From positions 1,984,001 to 2,048,000 of the forward strand of contig NZ_CP021023.1 in assembly GCF_002117005.1 (NCBI RefSeq): 64,000 nt of DNA, written 5' to 3'. Under the pieces are notes generated by a model, which ran no database searches, had not been told where the DNA came from, and saw only the letters and a program-made list of their open reading frames with translations. This document shows positions 8,017 through 45,299 of the stretch, piece after piece (position 1 is the first letter of the stretch; every line of letters starts with the position of its first letter). Both the position numbers and the translations under genes were made by a program. The DNA is from Sedimentisphaera salicampi (lineage in GTDB: Bacteria > Planctomycetota > Phycisphaerae > Sedimentisphaerales > Sedimentisphaeraceae).

Positions 8017-9603
8017 TTAAGCCTTTCTTTTTACAAATCTGCTTATCAGCAGCCCTGATACAAGTATTACCATCGTTCCGAATACGGGAATAAGGAAGGA
8101 ATGCAGATGGCTTTTCAGGTGATCCGGAAGCGCTCCAATCTTTGGTGATAATGTCATATATGCTATAACTATCAGCCCCATTATCACTGACGCAGCAGCG
8201 ATTGGGCTGTTTGCCCTTCTGCTTATCAGCCCGAGCAGGAAGAGCCCGAGCATACCGCCTCCGAATATACCTGCCAGCGTCCACCACGCATCAAGCGCGC
8301 TGGTTATGTTCACCAGCAGAAGCGCTGTTCCAGTTCCCAAGAGTCCCCAGAGGATTGTTGCGGTGTAGATGGCAAGCATAGACTGCTTCTCGGTGGATTT
8401 TTTATTGATAAATCGCTGATACCAGTCCGTTGCGATCAATGTTGCAGAGGAGTTCAAACTCGTTGATACAGTACTCATCGCTGCTGCAAATATAGCGGCA
8501 ATCAAAAGCCCCGTTACGCCTACGGGGAGCTGTTTGCCGATGAAGTGCGGAAATACCTTGTCTCCCATTTCAGAAATAGTAACAGACTCAGCCCTTTCAT
8601 CAAGCATCTCTCTAAACCCTGCGTCGCTCTCAGAGACGTTTTCTCTTAAAAGCTGCTGCTCTGCTACAGTATATCTAACTTCCTGCATATACTCAGGGTG
8701 AGTTTGATAGTAGGCATAAAGCTGAGTTCCTATGAAGAAGAATACCGCTGATACCGGCAGATAAAGAAGGCCGCCGAGCCAGATGCTTTTTCTCGCTTCT
8801 TTCGTGTTTTTAGAGGCGATGTAGCGCTGGATATAGCTTTGGTCTATACCGAAATTCTGAAGATTTATCACCACTCCATAAACCAGTACAACCCAGAAAG
8901 TTGCGTTGGTGAGCGATGGCCCGAAGCTTCCGAGGCTGAATTTATCATTAGCCGCAGCTATCTCAAATACCTGTGCAGGACCTTCGGGCATATTAAAAAG
9001 CATTATGGCCGAGCAGGCAACCGCACCAACCATCAGAACAATAGCCTGAAGCGCATCTGCCCAGATAATCGCTGCAATACCGCCAACGAATGAATAAACC
9101 GTAACAGAGAGACCTGTAACAAGGATGATAAGCCTTATATCTTTACCAAGAAGCACGCTCAGAGGCAAAGCCATCAGATACATCACAACCCCCATACGTG
9201 CAAGCTGAGTAAGCACGTAGAAGAAGCTTGCGTACATCCTCGCCCACGTTCCGAATCGGTGTTCAAGGTGCGCATACGCTGAGACTTCCCCCGTCCTTCT
9301 GTAGTAGGGCAGGAAAAACTTCACAGCAATCCACGTTGCCACAGGAATCGAAAGGCTGAATACAAACGGGTTCCAGTTTCCGCCGAACGATTTGCCCGGG
9401 AGCCCGAGAAAACTTATGCTGCTCAAGTAGGTGGCGAATATTGAAAGTCCGCAAGCCCAGCCGGGCAGAGCTCTGCTTGCTGCTGTAAAACCCTCCACCG
9501 ATCTGCTTTTTCGGTAGAAGTAGAAACCGATTCCCATAGTGAGCACAAAATAGAGAGCGAGAATCACCCAGTCTGCGCCGGTGAAATACGTTTCAACTTT
9601 CAT
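8017..9603 (-). CDS. Sodium:solute symporter (SSS family)
   Basis: This 528-residue protein has about 13 membrane segments and begins near residue 10 with WVILALYFVLTMGIGFYFYRKSRSVEGF, the typical SSS opening. It continues with ATYLSSISFLGLPG and the GGIAAIIWADALQ block that carries SSS-type Na+/substrate contacts. SSS carriers import sugars, sugar acids or sialic acid with Na+. It sits between the aldolase and the URO-D-like gene in one operon, so the probable substrate is the sugar or sugar acid that the aldolase cleaves. A hydrophilic loop around residues 300-345 is longer than usual. Confidence 0.9.
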   Translation of the reverse strand: MKVETYFTGADWVILALYFVLTMGIGFYFYRKSRSVEGFTAASRALPGWACGLSIFATYLSSISFLGLPGKSFGGNWNPFVFSLSIPVATWIAVKFFLPYYRRTGEVSAYAHLEHRFGTWARMYASFFYVLTQLARMGVVMYLMALPLSVLLGKDIRLIILVTGLSVTVYSFVGGIAAIIWADALQAIVLMVGAVACSAIMLFNMPEGPAQVFEIAAANDKFSLGSFGPSLTNATFWVVLVYGVVINLQNFGIDQSYIQRYIASKNTKEARKSIWLGGLLYLPVSAVFFFIGTQLYAYYQTHPEYMQEVRYTVAEQQLLRENVSESDAGFREMLDERAESVTISEMGDKVFPHFIGKQLPVGVTGLLIAAIFAAAMSTVSTSLNSSATLIATDWYQRFINKKSTEKQSMLAIYTATILWGLLGTGTALLLVNITSALDAWWTLAGIFGGGMLGLFLLGLISRRANSPIAAASVIMGLIVIAYMTLSPKIGALPDHLKSHLHSFLIPVFGTMVILVSGLLISRFVKRKA

Positions 9604-9670
9604 AGCCTATTGGTCTCCTGTTAAAATTAATTTTGAGGCCATTATAATCTTTGAAGCCCTTTGCAGGCAA

Positions 9671-10618
9671 CTATTTATTCTGCTCAATGGCAGAATAATC
9701 ACAGCCTATACTGCTGAGCTCTTCATTGTTTTCAGAAAGAAATTTCTTAATCCGCTCTCTTTGAATTTTATCTGCCGGCAGAAGAGGGCTGGCAATGAAA
9801 TCCGGACACAGATTTTTCTCGTATAGAGCATATTTAAGGCCTGAGATATAGCTTGGCTCATAAATGTTTTCAGCCATTTGAGCTACAAGACTTTTACAGT
9901 ATTCAGATGCAGCTGCATCTTTAGCTTCTAAAGACTGGAAGAATCTTGCAAAAAGGTTAGGGTAAATATTCGCCCCGCCTGTGATTCCGCCGTTTGCCCC
10001 CGAAGCTACAGCCTCATCAAGCAGCATTTCCGGCCCAATCATTACAGACCAGTCCGGACGGACAGCCTTGAGCTCTAAAACCCGGCGGAAATAATCCATG
10101 TCCGCAGAGCTGTCTTTCACTCCGATTATACCGGGCAGCTCTGTGAGTTTTCTGAGCGTTTCAATCTCGAAAACCGTCTTAGTGCAGCTGGGCATATTGT
10201 AGAGAAAAATAGGCAGCTCTATTTTTTCGTGAAGGTCTTTGATGTATTCACAGAGCTCGTTCTGTGTGATGGGGAAATAGTAAGGCGCACATACAACTAC
10301 AGCGTCCGCTCCGTTCTCTTCAGCCTCTCGCGCAAGCTCAAGCGTGTCTGTAATTGATGTAGTTGTGATCCCCGCAAGCACCAGCAGCCGCTGGTTTATA
10401 ATTCTGCAGCTTCGCTGAATTACCTCTTTTTTCATCCGCAGGCTGAGGCTCGCTGCCTCGCCGGTTGTTCCGAGAATAAAAAGACCGCTCACACCGCCTG
10501 CGATTATGTGTTCTATGAGTCTGCCCAGCTTTTCTGTATCAAGCTTTTCATGAGACTCCAGCGGTGTAACCAGCGGCGGGATTATTCCCTTGTACTGTTT
10601 GTCTTTTTCTAAAACCAT
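9671..10618 (-). CDS. DHDPS/N-acetylneuraminate-lyase family aldolase
   Basis: The 315-residue class I aldolase is recognisable from GTTGE (50-54), the Tyr140 motif FLYNMP and the Schiff-base Lys168 in GIIGVKDSS. The family includes DapA, NanA and 2-keto-3-deoxy sugar-acid aldolases; residues decisive for one substrate cannot be assigned by eye. The operon context (SSS symporter downstream, LacI-type regulator upstream, sialidase-like and sulfatase genes nearby) argues for a catabolic aldolase rather than lysine biosynthesis. The promoter with its operator palindromes lies at 10648-10712. NanA-like activity is attractive because of the sialidase-like protein at 16544, but unproven. Confidence 0.82.
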   Translation of the reverse strand: MVLEKDKQYKGIIPPLVTPLESHEKLDTEKLGRLIEHIIAGGVSGLFILGTTGEAASLSLRMKKEVIQRSCRIINQRLLVLAGITTTSITDTLELAREAEENGADAVVVCAPYYFPITQNELCEYIKDLHEKIELPIFLYNMPSCTKTVFEIETLRKLTELPGIIGVKDSSADMDYFRRVLELKAVRPDWSVMIGPEMLLDEAVASGANGGITGGANIYPNLFARFFQSLEAKDAAASEYCKSLVAQMAENIYEPSYISGLKYALYEKNLCPDFIASPLLPADKIQRERIKKFLSENNEELSSIGCDYSAIEQNK

Positions 10619-10647
10619 AATAATTCCTGATTCTTCTTGATTTTGCT

Positions 10648-10712
10648 AAAACGTTTTTATGTTAAACGATTGTAAACAATCAAATGCAAAAGGTCAACAG
10701 GAAAAACGTTTT
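10648..10712 (-). promoter_or_regulatory. Sigma70 promoter of the aldolase operon with two LacI-type operators
   Basis: Read on the minus strand, a -35 TTGACC (10697-10692) and a -10 TACAAT (10674-10669) are separated by exactly 17 bases. The palindrome AAAACGTTTT occurs at 10703-10712, just upstream of the -35, and at 10648-10657, just downstream of the expected start point. Centre-to-centre distance is 55 bases. The adjacent LacI-family gene makes these the likely operators; repression by one or both sites is inferred. Confidence 0.75.
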
Positions 10713-37616: not shown

Positions 37617-38309
37617 ATGAACGCTAAGCTCAAAGAGATCTTCAAGCTCCCGTTCAAGCCGTACTGGGCTCTGAGAAAGAAGCTCAGAACTGTTTACCTG
37701 CCCAAGAAATACTGGAACGACCTGCACAGCTCGAAAGATATCGATTCGCTCCGGCGAGTGGGATACAAAAACCGCTCCGAGGAGGAAAACAGGGCTATGT
37801 ATGAAAAGGCAAGACAAACCTTCCTCGGTTTCTGCAAAGAGTGCGGCGTGGATTTCTCAGCCTCGAAGGTGCTCGAGATCGGCTGCGGAACAGGCTTCTA
37901 CACCGATATAATAAGATCTCAGGGCTGCAGACAATACACCGGCATTGATATAAGCAGAGTTACGATTAAGCAGCTCAGAAAGAAATATCGGGGCTGCAAA
38001 TTCAAAACCCTCGATGCAGCTCAAGGAAAGCTCAGGGAAAAATTCGATGTGATCGTTATGATTGATGTTACTCAGCATATCGTAGGCGAGAAGAAATTCG
38101 CTTCTGCAATGAAAAACATCGACCAAATGCTCACCACCGGAGGGGTTTTTATCGTTACCTCATGGCTTTCTGAACAGATAATACAAAACCGCTATTACGA
38201 GGTGAAAAGACCCCTCAGCTGCTACAAACAGGCATTCCCAAAATACAACTTCTCAAAGCCCGAACCCTTCAGAGACAAATACATCTTTTCAATTTTCAAG
38301 CAGAGCTGA
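37617..38309 (+). CDS. Class I SAM-dependent methyltransferase
   Basis: The 230-residue protein has the SAM-binding motif I VLEIGCGTGFYTDII near residue 86, the acidic YTGIDIS at the end of strand 2 and VIVMIDVTQHI for motif III. The N-terminal basic stretch (residues 1-40) could contact a membrane or partner. It is linked to the AlkP-superfamily gene upstream by one base. Sugar or small-molecule O-methylation is a typical role for such genes in glycan loci. Its stop at 38309 lies 20 bases inside the scar left by the accessory element (38289-38342, minus strand). Confidence 0.85.
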   Translation: MNAKLKEIFKLPFKPYWALRKKLRTVYLPKKYWNDLHSSKDIDSLRRVGYKNRSEEENRAMYEKARQTFLGFCKECGVDFSASKVLEIGCGTGFYTDIIRSQGCRQYTGIDISRVTIKQLRKKYRGCKFKTLDAAQGKLREKFDVIVMIDVTQHIVGEKKFASAMKNIDQMLTTGGVFIVTSWLSEQIIQNRYYEVKRPLSCYKQAFPKYNFSKPEPFRDKYIFSIFKQS

Positions 38310-38342
38310 ACGGTCTGCCTTCCGAAGGTCTGCAAAGCCCAT
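38289..38342 (-). pseudogene. Truncated duplicate of the CHC2 primase gene start
   Basis: From ATG 38342 the minus strand reads MGFADLRKADRSALLEN and stops at 38289. The first eight residues are identical to the CHC2-type gene at 38767 and the next residues are near-identical; the rest is missing, because the frame runs into the end of the methyltransferase gene. It is the broken left end of a tandem duplication. Confidence 0.7.
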
Positions 38343-38557
38343 CAGTCCAGCCCTCGCTTTCCGAAGGCAATCTCGAGTTCTTCCGGCGCAGGATCTCGGC
38401 GCTGGAAGATTTCGCCGGCAGGCTGCCTTTAAGCTCTCGATGTCCGGATATGCCTTTGCCAGCTTCGGCTCGGGGCTATTCTCTCGCTTGCCTCTCAGGG
38501 GCTCTGAGTTTCGCTGTGCAGCCTTAATCAGCTCGGGGGCAGCCTCACCCTGCTCTT
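38342..38557 (-). pseudogene. Duplicate of the winged-helix gene tail, fused out of frame to the CHC2 gene
   Basis: A minus-strand frame without a usable start is open from about 38557 to the TGA at 38344-38342. Its end, AGEIFQRRDPAPEELEIAFG, repeats the C-terminus of the 38767 gene product (AGEIFQRRDPTPEDLEIAFG). The nucleotide match covers about 95 bases (38329-38424 against 38750-38851). The frame overlaps the last 30 bases of the CHC2 gene in a different register, so one base change would join them. It is a remnant of duplication and not a separate gene. Confidence 0.65.
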
Positions 38558-38767
38558 CGCTTCAACGTCCCACACAGAGCCGCAGAAGCCGCAGGAATGG
38601 CATTTGTACATCCAGAAGCCAGCCTCATTCTGGTAAATGCCCGCTGAGGGGTGCTTGTCTTCGTGAAACGGGCAGCAGCAGGAATCGCCTTTAAGCTGAG
38701 CCCCGGCGGCCTCAAGCTCTGCGGCCAGAGCCGCCCGGTCCCTCTTGCGAAGGTCTGCAAAGCCCAT
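38528..38767 (-). CDS. CHC2 zinc-finger primase-like protein, short
   Basis: This 79-residue product has the DnaG/P4-primase-type zinc finger: C-C-C-P-F-H-E-D-K-H-P-S (residues about 30-41) and YKCHSCGFCG (about 54-63). Full primases continue with a TOPRIM domain, absent here. The ATG overlaps the TGA of the upstream winged-helix gene by one base (TGATG), so translation is coupled. A second open register begins near 38557, suggesting a frameshift has shortened the protein by about 60 residues. It may be a primase accessory domain or a decayed gene. Confidence 0.6.
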   Translation of the reverse strand: MGFADLRKRDRAALAAELEAAGAQLKGDSCCCPFHEDKHPSAGIYQNEAGFWMYKCHSCGFCGSVWDVEAKSRVRLPPS

Positions 38768-39576
38768 CAGTCCAGCCCTCGCTTTCCGAAGGCAATCTCG
38801 AGATCTTCCGGCGTAGGATCTCGGCGCTGGAAGATTTCGCCGGCAGGCTGAGCTTTTGGCTTCAGGCTGCCTTGAGCTCGTGAAAGCCAGCTGCCGAGGA
38901 AACGGGGCATCCCCGCTGCGGTCTTCCGTTTGGCAGGATTATCCCGCAGCCACTGCTGAGCCTTGCGAAACTCGCTGTCAATATCCACTTCTGCGAAGGT
39001 GTTTTCATACTCTTCGAGTTTGGCTTTTGGCAGTGAGTAATCTTTCCCTCCCTTCAGCACAAAAGCATATCCGGAAGGCTCGTCCACATTACTCTTTTCT
39101 TTTCTTATTCTTTTATGGTCTAATTTTTGAACCGGTTCCGGTCTAATTTTTGTACCACTACCGGTACAGTTTTTAGACCGGTCTAATTTTTGAACCGGTC
39201 TATTTTTTAGACCACTACCGGTACAGTTTTTAGACCAGTCCGATTTTTGAACCGGTCTATTTTTTAGACCACTACCGGTACAGTTTTTAGACCAGTCCGA
39301 TTTTTGAACCGGTCTCATTTTTGTACCGGTTTTATATGTGTTAGATTTGCCTTTGCCCGTTCGATTAACTTCCAGAAGCCCAGCGGATTCCAGCCGGTTT
39401 ATGGAGCTGCAAACAGTTCCAGCGGCAAGCCCGCTTTTTTCCTGAAGCTTCCTCCTGCCCGGATATGCCTCGCCCTGATTTTCGTAATTTTGGATAATCG
39501 CAAGGATTATCTTATCGCTTGCCCGCAGGTCTTTCCGTGCTGCTGTATCGGCATCCAATTTAAAGAACATCTTCAA
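38767..39576 (-). CDS. Winged-helix replication-initiator-like protein with internal 19-residue repeats
   Basis: The 269-residue protein has a HTH_36-type winged helix at the N-terminus (about 15-85; ASDKIILAIIQNYENQGEAYPGRR and GTVCSSINRLESAGLL). A linker of near-perfect 19-residue repeats follows (RPVQKSDWSKNCTGSGLKN, about 88-155), then a charged C-terminal region. A strong AAGGAGG (minus strand, about 39589) precedes the ATG. Its DNA carries an iteron-like array (39118-39332). With a primase-type zinc finger coupled downstream it resembles phage or plasmid initiators such as lambda O, but only by layout; no sequence family beyond HTH_36 is claimed. Confidence 0.72.
   Translation of the reverse strand: MKMFFKLDADTAARKDLRASDKIILAIIQNYENQGEAYPGRRKLQEKSGLAAGTVCSSINRLESAGLLEVNRTGKGKSNTYKTGTKMRPVQKSDWSKNCTGSGLKNRPVQKSDWSKNCTGSGLKNRPVQKLDRSKNCTGSGTKIRPEPVQKLDHKRIRKEKSNVDEPSGYAFVLKGGKDYSLPKAKLEEYENTFAEVDIDSEFRKAQQWLRDNPAKRKTAAGMPRFLGSWLSRAQGSLKPKAQPAGEIFQRRDPTPEDLEIAFGKRGLD
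39118..39332. repeat. Iteron-like array inside the winged-helix gene
   Basis: About eleven degenerate units with core TTTTTGAACCGGT or TTTTTAGACC, spaced 17 or 23 bases, are arranged in higher-order 57-base repeats (TTTTTGAACC begins at 39187, 39244 and 39301; a 63-base variant begins at 39124). The units contain short ACCGGT palindromes and T-runs. They encode the 19-residue repeats of the protein. The pattern is consistent with an origin of replication placed within an initiator gene. Confidence 0.65.
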
Positions 39577-39730
39577 TCCGCCTCCTTTTTATTCTCTGCT
39601 GTCTTTGCTGAAGCTCAGCGCCGGCAAAGCAGAGGTTGAAATCGTATCTGTCTGGTGTTATCAGCCTGAATCGCTTTTGCCTCACCTCCGCAGCCGCCTG
39701 AGCTCGGGGGCTCTTTTTATTCCGCCTCAT
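39560..39730 (-). CDS. Small basic protein of unknown function
   Basis: Using ATG 39730 the product has 56 residues and is rich in Lys, Arg and Gln (MRRNKKSPRAQAAAEV, ending QRIKRRRIEDVL). I do not recognise it. Its ATG overlaps the TGA of the upstream two-HTH gene as ATGA, and its end overlaps the start of the winged-helix gene by 17 bases; both overlaps support real, coupled translation. A DNA- or RNA-binding role is possible from its charge, but is not shown. Confidence 0.5.
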   Translation of the reverse strand: MRRNKKSPRAQAAAEVRQKRFRLITPDRYDFNLCFAGAELQQRQQRIKRRRIEDVL

Positions 39731-40149
39731 TTTCCACCTCGTGATTTGTATTGTCTCCACTGGTCGGCTGGGATAAACCCGCCGGCCTCAATGCTTGCCT
39801 CAAACCATCTTTCCAGTTCCGCTGCCGGAAAAAGCAGTTTGCGGCCTGCCCGCAGGGGGCGAACGCCAATCCTGCCGTCTGAGAGCATTTCGTAGAATAG
39901 AGTTTTACCAACATTCAATTTGGCTCGCACTTGCCCGCTTGTGAGCATTGCTGATTCAGCTTGCATCGGAATCACCTCCTTTCGCTTCGCTGCCATTTCA
40001 GCGAGGCTTGCTTTAACTGTCTCCAGTTCAAATTTGTATTTGCGTCCAATCCTGAGACAAGGAATCTTCCCCGCCTCCACTTGCTCTTTGATCCAGCTGA
40101 GCGGCAAGTCCAGCTCATTTGCAATTTGGTTTATATTTTTCAGTTTCAT
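39727..40149 (-). CDS. Two-domain excisionase/MerR-like HTH protein
   Basis: The 140-residue product (start ATG 40149; a TTG at 40158 is an alternative) carries two excisionase-type HTH domains: NQIANELDLPLSWIKEQVEAGKIPCLRIGRKYKF (about 5-38) and LTSGQVRAKLNVGKTLFYEMLSDGRIGVRPLRAGRKLLF (about 68-106). Such proteins regulate or help excise mobile elements. It is the first gene of a four-gene coupled operon. A perfect 10-base inverted repeat lies immediately upstream (40151-40181), and no ribosome site is visible between that repeat and the ATG. Confidence 0.75.
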   Translation of the reverse strand: MKLKNINQIANELDLPLSWIKEQVEAGKIPCLRIGRKYKFELETVKASLAEMAAKRKEVIPMQAESAMLTSGQVRAKLNVGKTLFYEMLSDGRIGVRPLRAGRKLLFPAAELERWFEASIEAGGFIPADQWRQYKSRGGK

Positions 40150-40150
40150 A

Positions 40151-40181
40151 ATACCCAAAGTTTAACAACTGCTTTGGGTAT
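40151..40181. promoter_or_regulatory. Inverted-repeat operator before the two-HTH gene
   Basis: ATACCCAAAG (40151-40160) and CTTTGGGTAT (40172-40181) form a perfect 10-base dyad with an 11-base spacer (arm centres 21 bases apart). It ends two bases before ATG 40149 on the minus strand, so binding or hairpin formation would affect initiation. The two HTH domains of the downstream product suggest autoregulation. Confidence 0.55.
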
Positions 40182-40223: not shown

Positions 40224-40273
40224 TTTTTTATTTTTTCAGCGGAATTTAAATAGGGACAGTTACCCATTTATTG

Positions 40274-40631
40274 ATGCGTGGCTCGGTTTAAATATCTCGT
40301 TTTGTGAAGTCGCTGCGAAATACTAACGACAATCAGAGCCGTGCGTGGAGTCCGCCGAAGGCGGACGGAGCAAGCGGATAGATTCGTAGCTCGTAGCAAA
40401 ATCAGGACTTGACATCATTAGTGAAAAATTAGCGGGGATTAGTGGTTAGTAAATCCTTAGTGTTGCTTAGCGCTGCTTAGTGGCTTATAAATCTCAGCGG
40501 GGATTAGCGGCTGAAAAATTTTCTCCCCGCCTTTACCTATATTAAATATTTATCCTGTAGATCCTTGCCCCGTAGCCAAAGCGGTTCGGGGCTGTAAATC
40601 CTGTCAAAAAAATATCTCCCCTCTGTGCCCC
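40274..40631 (+). repeat. Dispersed repeat, unit 1 (left part, split by IS110)
   Basis: Begins TGCGTGGCTCGGTTTAAATA and contains the hairpin GTCCGCCGAAGGCGGAC, runs of 'ttagcg/ttagtg' words, and GGTTCGGGGCTGTAAATCCT near its end. The right part of the same unit continues at 41881 after the insertion element. No coding sense is visible in it. Confidence 0.7.
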
Positions 40632-40632
40632 T

Positions 40633-41880
<1,248 letters not shown>

Positions 41881-42400
41881 CTGTGGTTAATATGTATATT
41901 TTCTCTGCGTACTGCTGTCCACTTATTCCGTCCCGCCTGCGGCGGGCCTACATGCGTGGCTCGGTTTAAATATCTCGTTTTGTGAAATCGCTGCGAAATA
42001 CTAATGTCAATCAGAGCCGTGCGTGGAGTCCGCCGAAGGTGAAGAGCCTGTCCGCCGAAGGCGGAAAACAAGCGGATAGATTCGTAGCTCGTAGCAAAAT
42101 CATTAGTGAAAAATTAGCGCTGATTAGCGGTTAGTAAATCCTTAGTGCTGCTTAGCGCTGCTTAGTGGCTTATAAATCTCAGCGGGGATTAGCGGTTAAA
42201 AAATTTTCTCTCCGCCTTTTCCTATATTAAATATTTATCCTGTAGATCCTTGCCCCGCAGCCAAAGCGGTTCGGGGCTGTAAATCCTGTCAAAAAAATAT
42301 CTCCCCTCCGTGCCCCTCTGTGTGCCTCTGTGGTTAATATATATCTTTTCTCTCCGTACTGCTGTCCACTTATTCCGTCCCGCCTGCGGCGGGCCTACAT
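41881..42400 (+). repeat. Dispersed repeat, end of unit 1 and complete unit 2
   Basis: 41881-41951 completes unit 1 (CTGTGGTTAAT ... CCCGCCTGCGGCGGG). Unit 2 runs from TGCGTGG at 41952 to the next TGCGTGG at 42400, giving a 448-base period. Unit 1 would be about 430 bases without the insertion. Both contain the same order of hairpins and ttag-rich stretches. Apparent open frames here are chance. Confidence 0.75.
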
Positions 42401-42615
42401 GCGTGGCTCGGTTTAAATATCTCGTTTTGTGAAATCGCTGCGAAATACTAACGACAATCAGAGCCGCACGTGGAGTCCGCCGAAGGCGAAGAGCCTGTCC
42501 GCCGAAGGCGGAAAGCAAGCGGATAGATTCGTAGCTCGTGGCAAAATTATTAGTGAAAAATTAGCGGGGATTAGTGGTTAAAAATCTCAGCGTCCTTCGT
42601 GGTTTAATACGAATT
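42400..42615 (+). repeat. Dispersed repeat, unit 3 (truncated)
   Basis: A third tandem start (TGCGTGGCTCGGTTTAAATA) followed by the two GTCCGCCGAAGGCGGA-type hairpins and the start of the ttag-rich part, breaking off about 125 bases before the GLUG protein gene. The remaining 42616-42740 is AT-rich and probably carries that gene's promoter. Confidence 0.7.
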
Positions 42616-42740
42616 TTTCAAAAAAATCGGCGAAAATCTTATTTTTACCCTTGAATTAAACCTCTTATCCGCTATTTTAGATTTATATAAACACAATACG
42701 GTTGGCAAATGAAATTTCAATAATGTTTATGAGGAGAAAA

Positions 42741-45299
42741 ATGAATACTTTAAGGCTTCCCATTCTCGCAGCAATCTTTACAGCAAGCATTGCATTCGGT
42801 TTCGCCGCAGGAGACGGCACAGAAAACAACCCATACCAAATTTCCACCCCCGACCACCTCGAAGCGGTGAACAACGACCTCTCCGCCCATTACGTTCTGA
42901 CGAATAACATCGACCTCTCGGATAGAACCTACGAACGAGCCGTTATCGCCCCGGATACTAGTTACATTAGTTGGGGTTTCAACGGTACGCCTTTCTCCGG
43001 CTCATTTGACGGGGCTGGCTATAAGATTTTGAATCTCACCGTTGATACATTAGACGTAACAGAAAATCATCCCCGATATCTCGGACTTTTTGGAAAAATA
43101 AAAGGCGGCGAAATTCAAAATCTTGGTATTGAAAATGCTGGTATAATTGGCTGTAATGATTCGTGGTATCTTGGTGGCCTGTGCGGATATAATAGCAAAG
43201 GCTTAATCAAGAAATGCTATACGAAAGGCTCTGTTTCAGGAGGCGGCGGGCTCGGCGGGCTGTGCGGAGTTAATGCAGAAGGCACAATCTTAAACTGCTA
43301 TGCGGAAGGCTCTGTTTCAGGATATATATATATTGGCAGCAAGGGCGGATTGTGCGGATACAATGAAGAAGGCACAATCACGAATTGCTATGCAACAGGC
43401 GATGTTTCGGGAGATTCGAATCTCGGCGGCCTGTGCGGAGATAATTATGGTGGCACAATCACGAACTGCTATGCGGCCGGCTCTGTTTCGGGCGGTAATG
43501 ATTCATGGTGTTTCGGCGGCCTGTGCGGAGATAATAGCAGCGGCACTATCACGAAATGCTATGCGGAAGGAGATGTTTCAGGTGGTGATAATTCTGATTA
43601 TCTTGGCGGCCTGTGCGGAATGATTGAAGGAGGCAAAATAACTAATTGCTATGCCACGGGCTCTGTTTCGGGAGGCAAAGATTCCGAAGATATTGGGGGT
43701 CTGTGTGGATATAATGATTTGGGAACAATTCAAAATTGCTATTCAAAAGGCGAAATGACAGCTGGCGATAAGAGTAAAAAACTCGGCGGTCTGTGTGGAG
43801 AAAATGAAGGCGGGACAATCACAAATTGCTTCTGGGACAAAGAAGGAAGCGGGATAGCTATAAGCGAAGGCGGAAGGCCTAAGACTACAGCTCAAATGAA
43901 ATCCGCTGCAACATTTTTCGGCTGGAATGACGGAAGCTGGACAATAAATGAAGGCAATGATCACCCTTGCCTCGCTTGGGAAAATGCTGAAGGCTCAGTT
44001 GTTTCTACCAGCTACCAAGCCAGAACTTACAGCGGCGAAGGTACGCAAGAAAATCCTTTCGAAATTTCTGATGCGAAGGATTTAGTCTGCCTCAGCAATC
44101 GCCCGCCAGACTGGGATAAACATTTTGTTCTAATCAATGATATAGATATGGAAGGAGAAATTTATTATCCGATAACAACTTTCAGCGGCAGTTTTGACGG
44201 CAGCAGCTTCAAAATATTTAATCTGGAAATTAACAGTGAATATATAGGGTTGCGTTCGCAACTCGGTCTTTTTGGAAAAATCAATGAAGGAGAAGTTAGT
44301 AATATTGGTATTGAAAATGCTCAGATTACCGGTGGCGAGGATTCTTTGTATTTCGGCGGCTTGTGCGGGTATAACAGAAATGCTACAATCGAAAACTGCT
44401 ATACGACCGGCTCTGTTTCAGGTGGCAATAATTCAAGACTTATAAGCGGCCTGTGTGGAGAAAATGCAGAAGGCAAAATCATTAAATGTTATTCGAAGAG
44501 CTATGTTTCAGGTGGTAATAATTCTGAAGATCTTGGCGGCCTGTGTGGAGATAGCAGCGGCACAATCACAAAATGCTATGCAAGAGGGCATGTTTCTGGC
44601 GGTGATGATTCAAGACATCTTGGCGGCCTTACTGGATTAAATTCGGAAGGCAAAATCAAGAACTGCTATTCTACATGCGATGTTAAAGGGGGGGATGTTG
44701 CGGGAAAACTTGGCGGCCTATGCGGAATAAATTCTGGAGGCACAATTACGAACTGTTATTCGACCGGCTTTGTTTCAGGGGGTGGAGAGCTTGGCGGCCT
44801 GTGTGGATGGAATGGAGGCACAATTAAGAACTGCTATGCAGAAGGCGATGTTTCAGGTGTTGCAGTTATCGGGGCCTTGTGCGGATTTAATACTGATACA
44901 ATTACGAACTGTTATGCTGCGGGCGATGTTTCAGGGGGTGATGATGCAAAGAGTATCGGCGGCTTATGCGGAATAAACTTTGAAGGCAGAATCACGAAGT
45001 GCTATTCTAAAGGTTATGTTACAGCGGGGGGTAAGGCTGAAAATTTTGGCGGATTTTGCGGAAATAATAGCGGGGTAATTATAAACTCTTTTTGGGATAA
45101 AGAAACGAGCGGAATAGATACCAGCGATGGCGGAGCAGGGCTTTATACAAACCAGATGAAGACGCTGAGCACATTTACTAATGCCGGCTGGGATTTTGCG
45201 GACAGTTCAGCGGCAAATGAGGAAGATGGGATATGGCTGATGGATGAGAAAAATTATCCGAAGCTAAATGTTATAATTGAAATAGGACTTAAGGATTGA
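42741..45299 (+). CDS. Secreted GLUG-repeat surface protein
   Basis: I choose ATG 42741, preceded by GAGGAG (42731-42736), giving 852 residues with a signal peptide (MNTLRLPILAAIFTASIAFGFA). The rest is two blocks, each opening with 'G.GT.ENPYQI' (about residues 28 and 435) and continuing with about ten GLUG-type repeats of the form GGLCG.N..GTI.NCYA.G.VSGG. Such proteins form beta-helical adhesin-like rods. The C-terminus stops at YPKLNVIIEIGLKD without the dockerin-like tail usual for this genome; a matching tail lies at 46087-46272. The following gene starts 6 bases later. Confidence 0.85.
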   Translation: MNTLRLPILAAIFTASIAFGFAAGDGTENNPYQISTPDHLEAVNNDLSAHYVLTNNIDLSDRTYERAVIAPDTSYISWGFNGTPFSGSFDGAGYKILNLTVDTLDVTENHPRYLGLFGKIKGGEIQNLGIENAGIIGCNDSWYLGGLCGYNSKGLIKKCYTKGSVSGGGGLGGLCGVNAEGTILNCYAEGSVSGYIYIGSKGGLCGYNEEGTITNCYATGDVSGDSNLGGLCGDNYGGTITNCYAAGSVSGGNDSWCFGGLCGDNSSGTITKCYAEGDVSGGDNSDYLGGLCGMIEGGKITNCYATGSVSGGKDSEDIGGLCGYNDLGTIQNCYSKGEMTAGDKSKKLGGLCGENEGGTITNCFWDKEGSGIAISEGGRPKTTAQMKSAATFFGWNDGSWTINEGNDHPCLAWENAEGSVVSTSYQARTYSGEGTQENPFEISDAKDLVCLSNRPPDWDKHFVLINDIDMEGEIYYPITTFSGSFDGSSFKIFNLEINSEYIGLRSQLGLFGKINEGEVSNIGIENAQITGGEDSLYFGGLCGYNRNATIENCYTTGSVSGGNNSRLISGLCGENAEGKIIKCYSKSYVSGGNNSEDLGGLCGDSSGTITKCYARGHVSGGDDSRHLGGLTGLNSEGKIKNCYSTCDVKGGDVAGKLGGLCGINSGGTITNCYSTGFVSGGGELGGLCGWNGGTIKNCYAEGDVSGVAVIGALCGFNTDTITNCYAAGDVSGGDDAKSIGGLCGINFEGRITKCYSKGYVTAGGKAENFGGFCGNNSGVIINSFWDKETSGIDTSDGGAGLYTNQMKTLSTFTNAGWDFADSSAANEEDGIWLMDEKNYPKLNVIIEIGLKD

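Follow-up and report, generated by a model that had tools for sequence, protein, structure and literature searches.

In phage lambda the origin, made up of iterons and an AT-rich tract, occupies the middle of the initiator gene O (PMC7466680), and RepA_N plasmids have iterons that converge towards a poly-A tract (PMC7145576). Such sequences can also act against the replicons to which they belong: lambda is arrested by ectopic copies of its origin (PMC4488673), plasmids bearing lambda iterons inhibit rep-lambda phages (PMC3349717), and PER is known in streptococcal phages (PMC6356513). Here we describe a four-gene operon with iterons inside its initiator gene, found in the window, by which we mean the whole 64,000-nucleotide stretch of Sedimentisphaera salicampi DNA analysed. 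We consider it likely, at roughly 80%, that this locus is a decaying copy of the replication module of an integrative, satellite-like element, whose initiator would bind the iterons in its own gene, open an A-rich tract and start theta replication.

Operon, initiator and iteron array

The operon comprises the following features (window coordinates):

40152-40180, no strand given: operator-like inverted repeat TACCCAAAG-N11-CTTTGGGTA, directly upstream of gene 1, called from the sequence
39727-40158, minus strand, ATG at 40149: gene 1, two HTH_17 (excisionase/AlpA-type) domains, probably a regulator
39560-39760, minus strand, ATG at 39730: gene 2, short basic protein
38767-39576, minus strand: gene 3, replication initiator with a winged helix (aa 1-85), an array-encoded linker and a helical C-terminal domain
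39125-39327, minus strand: type A iteron array of 11 cores, inside gene 3
39092-39117, minus strand: A-rich tract CATAAAAGAATAAGAAAAGAAAAGAG, presumed unwinding element, its start conserved in the relative L073
38528-38767, minus strand: gene 4 remnant, CHC2 zinc finger (PF01807, 4.2e-7), start of a primase-helicase
38301-38425, minus strand: partial duplication, a 93% copy of 38726-38850 (end of gene 3 and start of gene 4)

Genes 1 and 2 meet in ATGA (39727-39730), genes 2 and 3 overlap by 17 bases (39560-39576), provided that gene 3 starts at the TTG at 39576, and genes 3 and 4 meet in TGATG, so that the gene coordinates bear out the four overlapping minus-strand genes of the original prediction. 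Its description of the third gene, a winged-helix protein with an 11-unit array, agrees with an HTH_36 match (4.1e-6, Pfam) and with a count of exactly 11 cores of the GGTNNAAAA type; the CHC2 primase-type zinc finger that it saw in the fourth is also present, but as a fragment of a primase-helicase and not as a complete small protein. The product of gene 1 matched PF12728 over two stretches (6.1e-15, Pfam profile search), TIGR01764 (1.3e-13) and phrog_66, excisionase and transcriptional regulator (2.8e-9), and the inverted repeat upstream of it recurs in copies L063, L055 and L051. Gene 2 had no family match in Pfam or PHROG searches.

Besides HTH_36, gene 3 matched the replication initiation family phrog_1032 (4.8e-10, aligned over 17-236 of 269 aa) and the O-like phrog_391 (1.9e-5), and Pfam searches with E up to 1 returned neither Phage_rep_O nor RepA_N (PF06970). 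The expectation that its families would differ from those of lambda O thus holds at the Pfam level, but O-like families do match weakly in PHROG. An AlphaFold2 model of the intact copy L063 has an ordered winged helix at residues 1-85 (block means 85-97), an array-encoded linker at 97-198 that is predicted to be disordered (mostly below 50) and a C-terminal part predicted to be helical. The best PDB folds for the N-terminal domain were N-terminal domains of plasmid initiators (4pql, 4.4e-4; 4pt7, 5.4e-4); the Rep-iteron complex 5kbj ranked fifth (1.0e-3), and these matches to a modelled structure suggest the DnaD-like winged-helix fold of RepA_N initiators. Wing and array type covary among copies, which linkage alone explains, since the two are adjacent.

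Counted from the start of the A-rich tract at 39117, the cores lie at offsets -210, -193, -176, -153, -136, -119, -96, -79, -62, -39 and -16, that is, at spacings of 17, 17, 23, 17, 17, 23, 17, 17, 23 and 23 bp, and codon shuffles never reached the repeat count observed in the linker (0/60; row L075). Direct-repeat iterons within the initiator coding sequence and an adjoining AT-rich tract together make up a lambda-O-type layout. In type A arrays, old variation amounts to 2.7% in cores and 15.5% in spacers, the cores being defined by their own conservation. From its sequence, we take the array to be a DNA element of the origin type and not a protein repeat.

Homologous initiators and kind of element

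We compared 27 non-redundant initiators, 26 from genomes of the class (Phycisphaerae) and one from Vibrio phage H20. Direct repeats at 17, 22, 23 or 24 bp were present in the corresponding linker of 24 of the 27, against 1.04 expected from codon shuffles; a lag of 22 bp occurs in 16 loci, 23 in 14 and 17 in 5, each with a shuffle mean of about 0.3. From one genome to the next, the cores have for the most part unrelated sequences, and L079, L083 and L084 have the spacing order 17-17-22-23 in common despite unrelated cores. The H20 homologue carries 24-bp repeats, and Vibrio phages of about 53 kb encode full-length but distant homologues of the initiator. Single-protein and alignment queries of IMG/VR found no close relatives; one match there to the type C iteron pattern was unrelated and was discarded. 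Conservation of the array in homologues, proposed earlier as a check, is borne out by these counts, and the lambda-O-like layout with intragenic iterons and a partner gene downstream is real, repeats in the linker being the common arrangement. Given the homologue arrays, the disordered linker and the RepA-type N-terminal fold, the likeness to lambda O holds in both layout and architecture.

The nearest relative, L041/L073, has an initiator 35% identical overall; the iterons of L073 are near-identical to those of the window copy and its A-rich tract has the same start, and its C-terminal domain is not alignable with that of the window genome. This relative lies in a complete 6.5-kb insertion (L105), flanked by a tRNA-Arg and, at the opposite end, its 36-nt direct repeat. 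L105 encodes a tyrosine integrase (PF00589, 3.5e-22) and a pair of small HTH proteins, one of them with a weak HTH_17 match slightly below the cut-off, as well as the initiator with its type A iterons, a DnaC/IstB-like ATPase (helicase loader) and TerS (PF03592, 8e-26). At 9282-10656 (reverse-complement coordinates) it also encodes proteins of 268 and 156 aa of no clear family, the smaller of which faintly resembles a head-scaffolding family (phrog_15003, E 0.034). Among the proteins scanned, none was recognised as the product of a capsid or tail gene. Seven further homologue loci have an integrase no more than about 4 kb away from the initiator. The original suggestion of a replication core from an integrated plasmid or phage satellite fits this att-flanked element and its integrase and TerS genes; the element speaks for a satellite-like origin of the module, an assignment drawn mainly from one relative. 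The integrase that was to be looked for near the window element is absent within 31 kb; since none of the six integrase-family matches in the window genome comes closer than 31 kb to a module, its copies are not complete integrative elements, and no att repeat was found for them.

Gene 4 of the window is cut after 79 codons, beside the 125-bp partial duplication. An intact copy of the operon (L063, genome 2782688-2786032) has a gene 4 of 591 aa (genome 2782688-2784460) with CHC2, Toprim-like and RecA/DnaB-like parts, matching the primase/helicase family phrog_239 (6e-44). The window operon is a degraded copy in which the primase-helicase is truncated. Synteny with the sister species breaks at the intact copy (empty-site comparison), and the ORF translations of its neighbourhood, read by eye, contained no structural-gene hallmark. 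At L063:2643-5430, we also saw a tandem of three PEP-CTERM-type proteins, each of about 205 aa and nearly identical to the others, with repeats between them.

Were the array simply a coding repeat in the linker of a winged-helix transcription regulator, with no origin function, its being in frame with a unit of 57 bp (19 codons) would be accounted for. This reading is hardly tenable, however, and we rejected it on the homologue spacing statistics, the core-sparing variants and the predicted disorder of the linker. Unit variants mostly alter amino acids and leave the cores unchanged, homologues retain the spacing (17, 22 and 23 bp, not multiples of 3) and not the sequence, and cores persist in gene-less copies with broken frames. 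Homologues without the array, or a protein repeat kept over diverged DNA, had been named as evidence against an origin; what we found conserved are the DNA spacing and the cores. An origin of the module in a decayed ordinary temperate prophage, and not in a satellite, is unlikely but deserves serious consideration. Because of the distant full-length homologues in the 53-kb Vibrio phages, we take the module to occur in ordinary phages as well, and gene 3 matches PHROG phage initiator families; yet the closest element with the same iterons measures 6.5 kb and encodes TerS, none of its scanned proteins was recognised as capsid or tail, and nothing structural was seen by eye beside the intact copy.

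Dispersed origin modules in the chromosome

The window array is one of 24 origin modules (9 of type A, 8 of type B and 7 of type C) that occupy 14 regions of the genome, most of the modules being gene-less. The original prediction had no view of these dispersed copies. Two features of the window recur with them:

38984-39110, minus strand: shared segment, A-rich tract plus the SGYAFVLKGGKDYSLPKAK coding part, repeated in all 24 modules
40247-40272, minus strand: left-end sequence P, AATAAATGGGTAACTGTCCCTATTTA, an imperfect palindrome with 21 genome matches at no more than 2 mismatches, 18 of them exact

All modules have in common the A-rich stretch and about 80 bp downstream of it, and array types A, B and C follow one common spacing measured from the A-rich tract. 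Type C modules always follow an A or B module and, in the copies examined, have no N-terminal initiator part. Variants within this shared part do not sort by array type, a sequence pattern that suggests gene conversion between modules; the codon-position count over the shared 77-bp part comprised 3 singletons only. In gene-less copies, P is joined directly to gene 3 at position ~39374-39384. One left junction is common to five type A copies and a CAGCAGCA-bounded deletion of the winged helix to five type B copies; since the same junction or deletion recurs at several loci, these forms multiplied after gene loss. The sister species has no initiator match and no modules, and other carriers among 397 sampled genomes of the class have one or two loci each.

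The modules sit within intergenic mosaics of repeated phrases, for example at window 40260-40640 and 42000-42500, and such phrases (CCGCTAATC..GCTAATTTTTCACTAATGATTTTGC and ACCACAGAGGCACACAGAGG, among others) fill many intergenic regions of G000:C1. One 381-bp intergenic phrase has 85 matches in the window genome and 23 weaker ones in the sister species, and at L064 an insertion sequence with repeated copies in both species makes up part of the flank. In type A modules without genes, private mutations fall in cores at 5/639 and in spacers at 5/787, these being few events. As recent mutations strike cores and spacers equally, the modules look like passengers in amplifying intergenic repeats, and the simplest reading of the dispersed copies is that they were carried along by this amplification.

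Several further observations were made around these loci. P also stands as a separate intergenic phrase, sometimes without an array (G000:C1:1982848, 2052080, 2143526 and 2458095, plus module loci), and may be a REP-like or recombination sequence. An IS110-family transposase at window 40875-41855 has near-identical copies beside L054, L061, L062 and, twice, L063, and window 42702-45299 encodes an 865-aa protein with many GLUG-like repeats (GGLCGxNxGTITNCYAxGxVSGG). At L056:13680-18942 (G000:C1 about 1568680-1573940), a CRISPR-like array was seen by eye, with units of about GTTGTGGCTTGCTCACAGATTCGG; it adjoins cas2-, cas1- and cas9-like ORFs, and a cluster of origin modules is no more than 10 kb away.

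The dispersed copies might instead be non-autonomous miniature elements, comparable to defective-interfering or MITE-type derivatives: the initiator of a helper, together with recombination at the P palindrome, would mobilise the short P-array-KGG units in trans. The L064a unit is bounded by direct copies of P, left junctions are identical at 5 loci and every short copy retains the array; we still judge this improbable, in that P stands at both ends of that one unit only, the other right ends being of T or G type, P is common between genes without arrays, and no target duplications were found. It is quite improbable that the 24 modules are kept as origin decoys, which would titrate or handcuff the initiators of matching incoming phages or satellites and so confer an incompatibility immunity of three specificities. 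Their number and three specificities, the lack of genes in most of them and the spread of deleted forms after gene loss would suit such a role, and because there are precedents for a functional reading in ectopic lambda origins (PMC4488673), iteron-dependent inhibition (PMC3349717) and PER (PMC6356513), the question is a fair, if unproven, one. Nevertheless, the few private mutations are no rarer in cores than in spacers, the modules travel within a wider intergenic repeat family that lacks iterons, they are absent from the sister species, and no other tested genome has an equal copy number.

Proposed mechanism and comparison with known systems

In the satellite-like module that we favour, the winged-helix initiator would bind the iterons within its own gene, at their 17/17/23-bp spacing, and the bound initiator would open the adjoining A-rich tract, whereupon theta replication would be started by its C-terminal domain and the downstream primase-helicase, in the manner of lambda O and P. 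Regulation of the operon would fall to the double-HTH_17 gene. In this chromosome, the module would have lost its integrase and pieces of its origin would have been copied into intergenic repeat clusters, most of them now presumably passive remnants.

Throughout one family of initiators from Planctomycetota integrative elements, an intragenic, lambda-like origin thus appears to be the rule, with the spacing of 17-17-22/23-23 kept and the iteron sequence free to change, and this spacing rule could be used to find origins in unannotated elements from sequence alone. The results also point to the presence in Phycisphaerae of a satellite-like element that is compact, at 6.5 kb. Furthermore, they describe a naturally occurring chromosome with many ectopic phage-type origins, in which host protection by the dispersed copies is directly testable; if the copies did act as decoys, they would constitute a natural, sequence-specific incompatibility immunity against matching elements.

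Like lambda O with ori-lambda and the O gene of Stx phages, the window gene carries iterons and an AT-rich tract in mid-initiator, and it resembles lambda O in having a predicted N-terminal DNA-binding part, an origin-bearing linker, a C-terminal part and a replication partner downstream. It differs in its HTH_36/RepA_N-like winged helix in place of Pfam Phage_rep_O, in the 17/17/23 spacing of its array and in its partner, a primase-helicase (in L073 a DnaC-like loader) and not P. The initiators of PHROG 1032 and related phage families (phrog_270, 428 and 391) match it in sequence, and the homologue in Vibrio phage H20 has repeats in the corresponding linker, but identity is low (26%) and the repeat sequences are unrelated. 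RepA_N plasmid initiators (pSK41/pTZ2162 RepA and PLE RepA) provide the best fold match for the N-terminal domain, although a Pfam search of the window initiator with E up to 1 did not return RepA_N.

With Gram-negative PICIs (PMC6092414), L105 shares tRNA attachment, an integrase, an AlpA-like small HTH protein, an origin-bearing replication module and TerS; in the window, the HTH_17 doublet (6.1e-15) is the candidate AlpA-like regulator, by a likeness that suggests a similar fold family. Unlike PICIs, L105 measures 6.5 kb and not about 15 kb, the origin lies within the initiator gene and not immediately 3' of it, the initiator is not fused to a primase, and the integrase and specific att site present in L105 are missing from the window copy. 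We have not filed L105 as a PICI because its size and origin position differ. Finally, as in PER and in the resistance conferred by ectopic lambda origins, extra origin copies in the host could, by analogy, titrate an initiator; there the origins are plasmid- or prophage-borne, whereas in the window genome they are chromosomal and dispersed.
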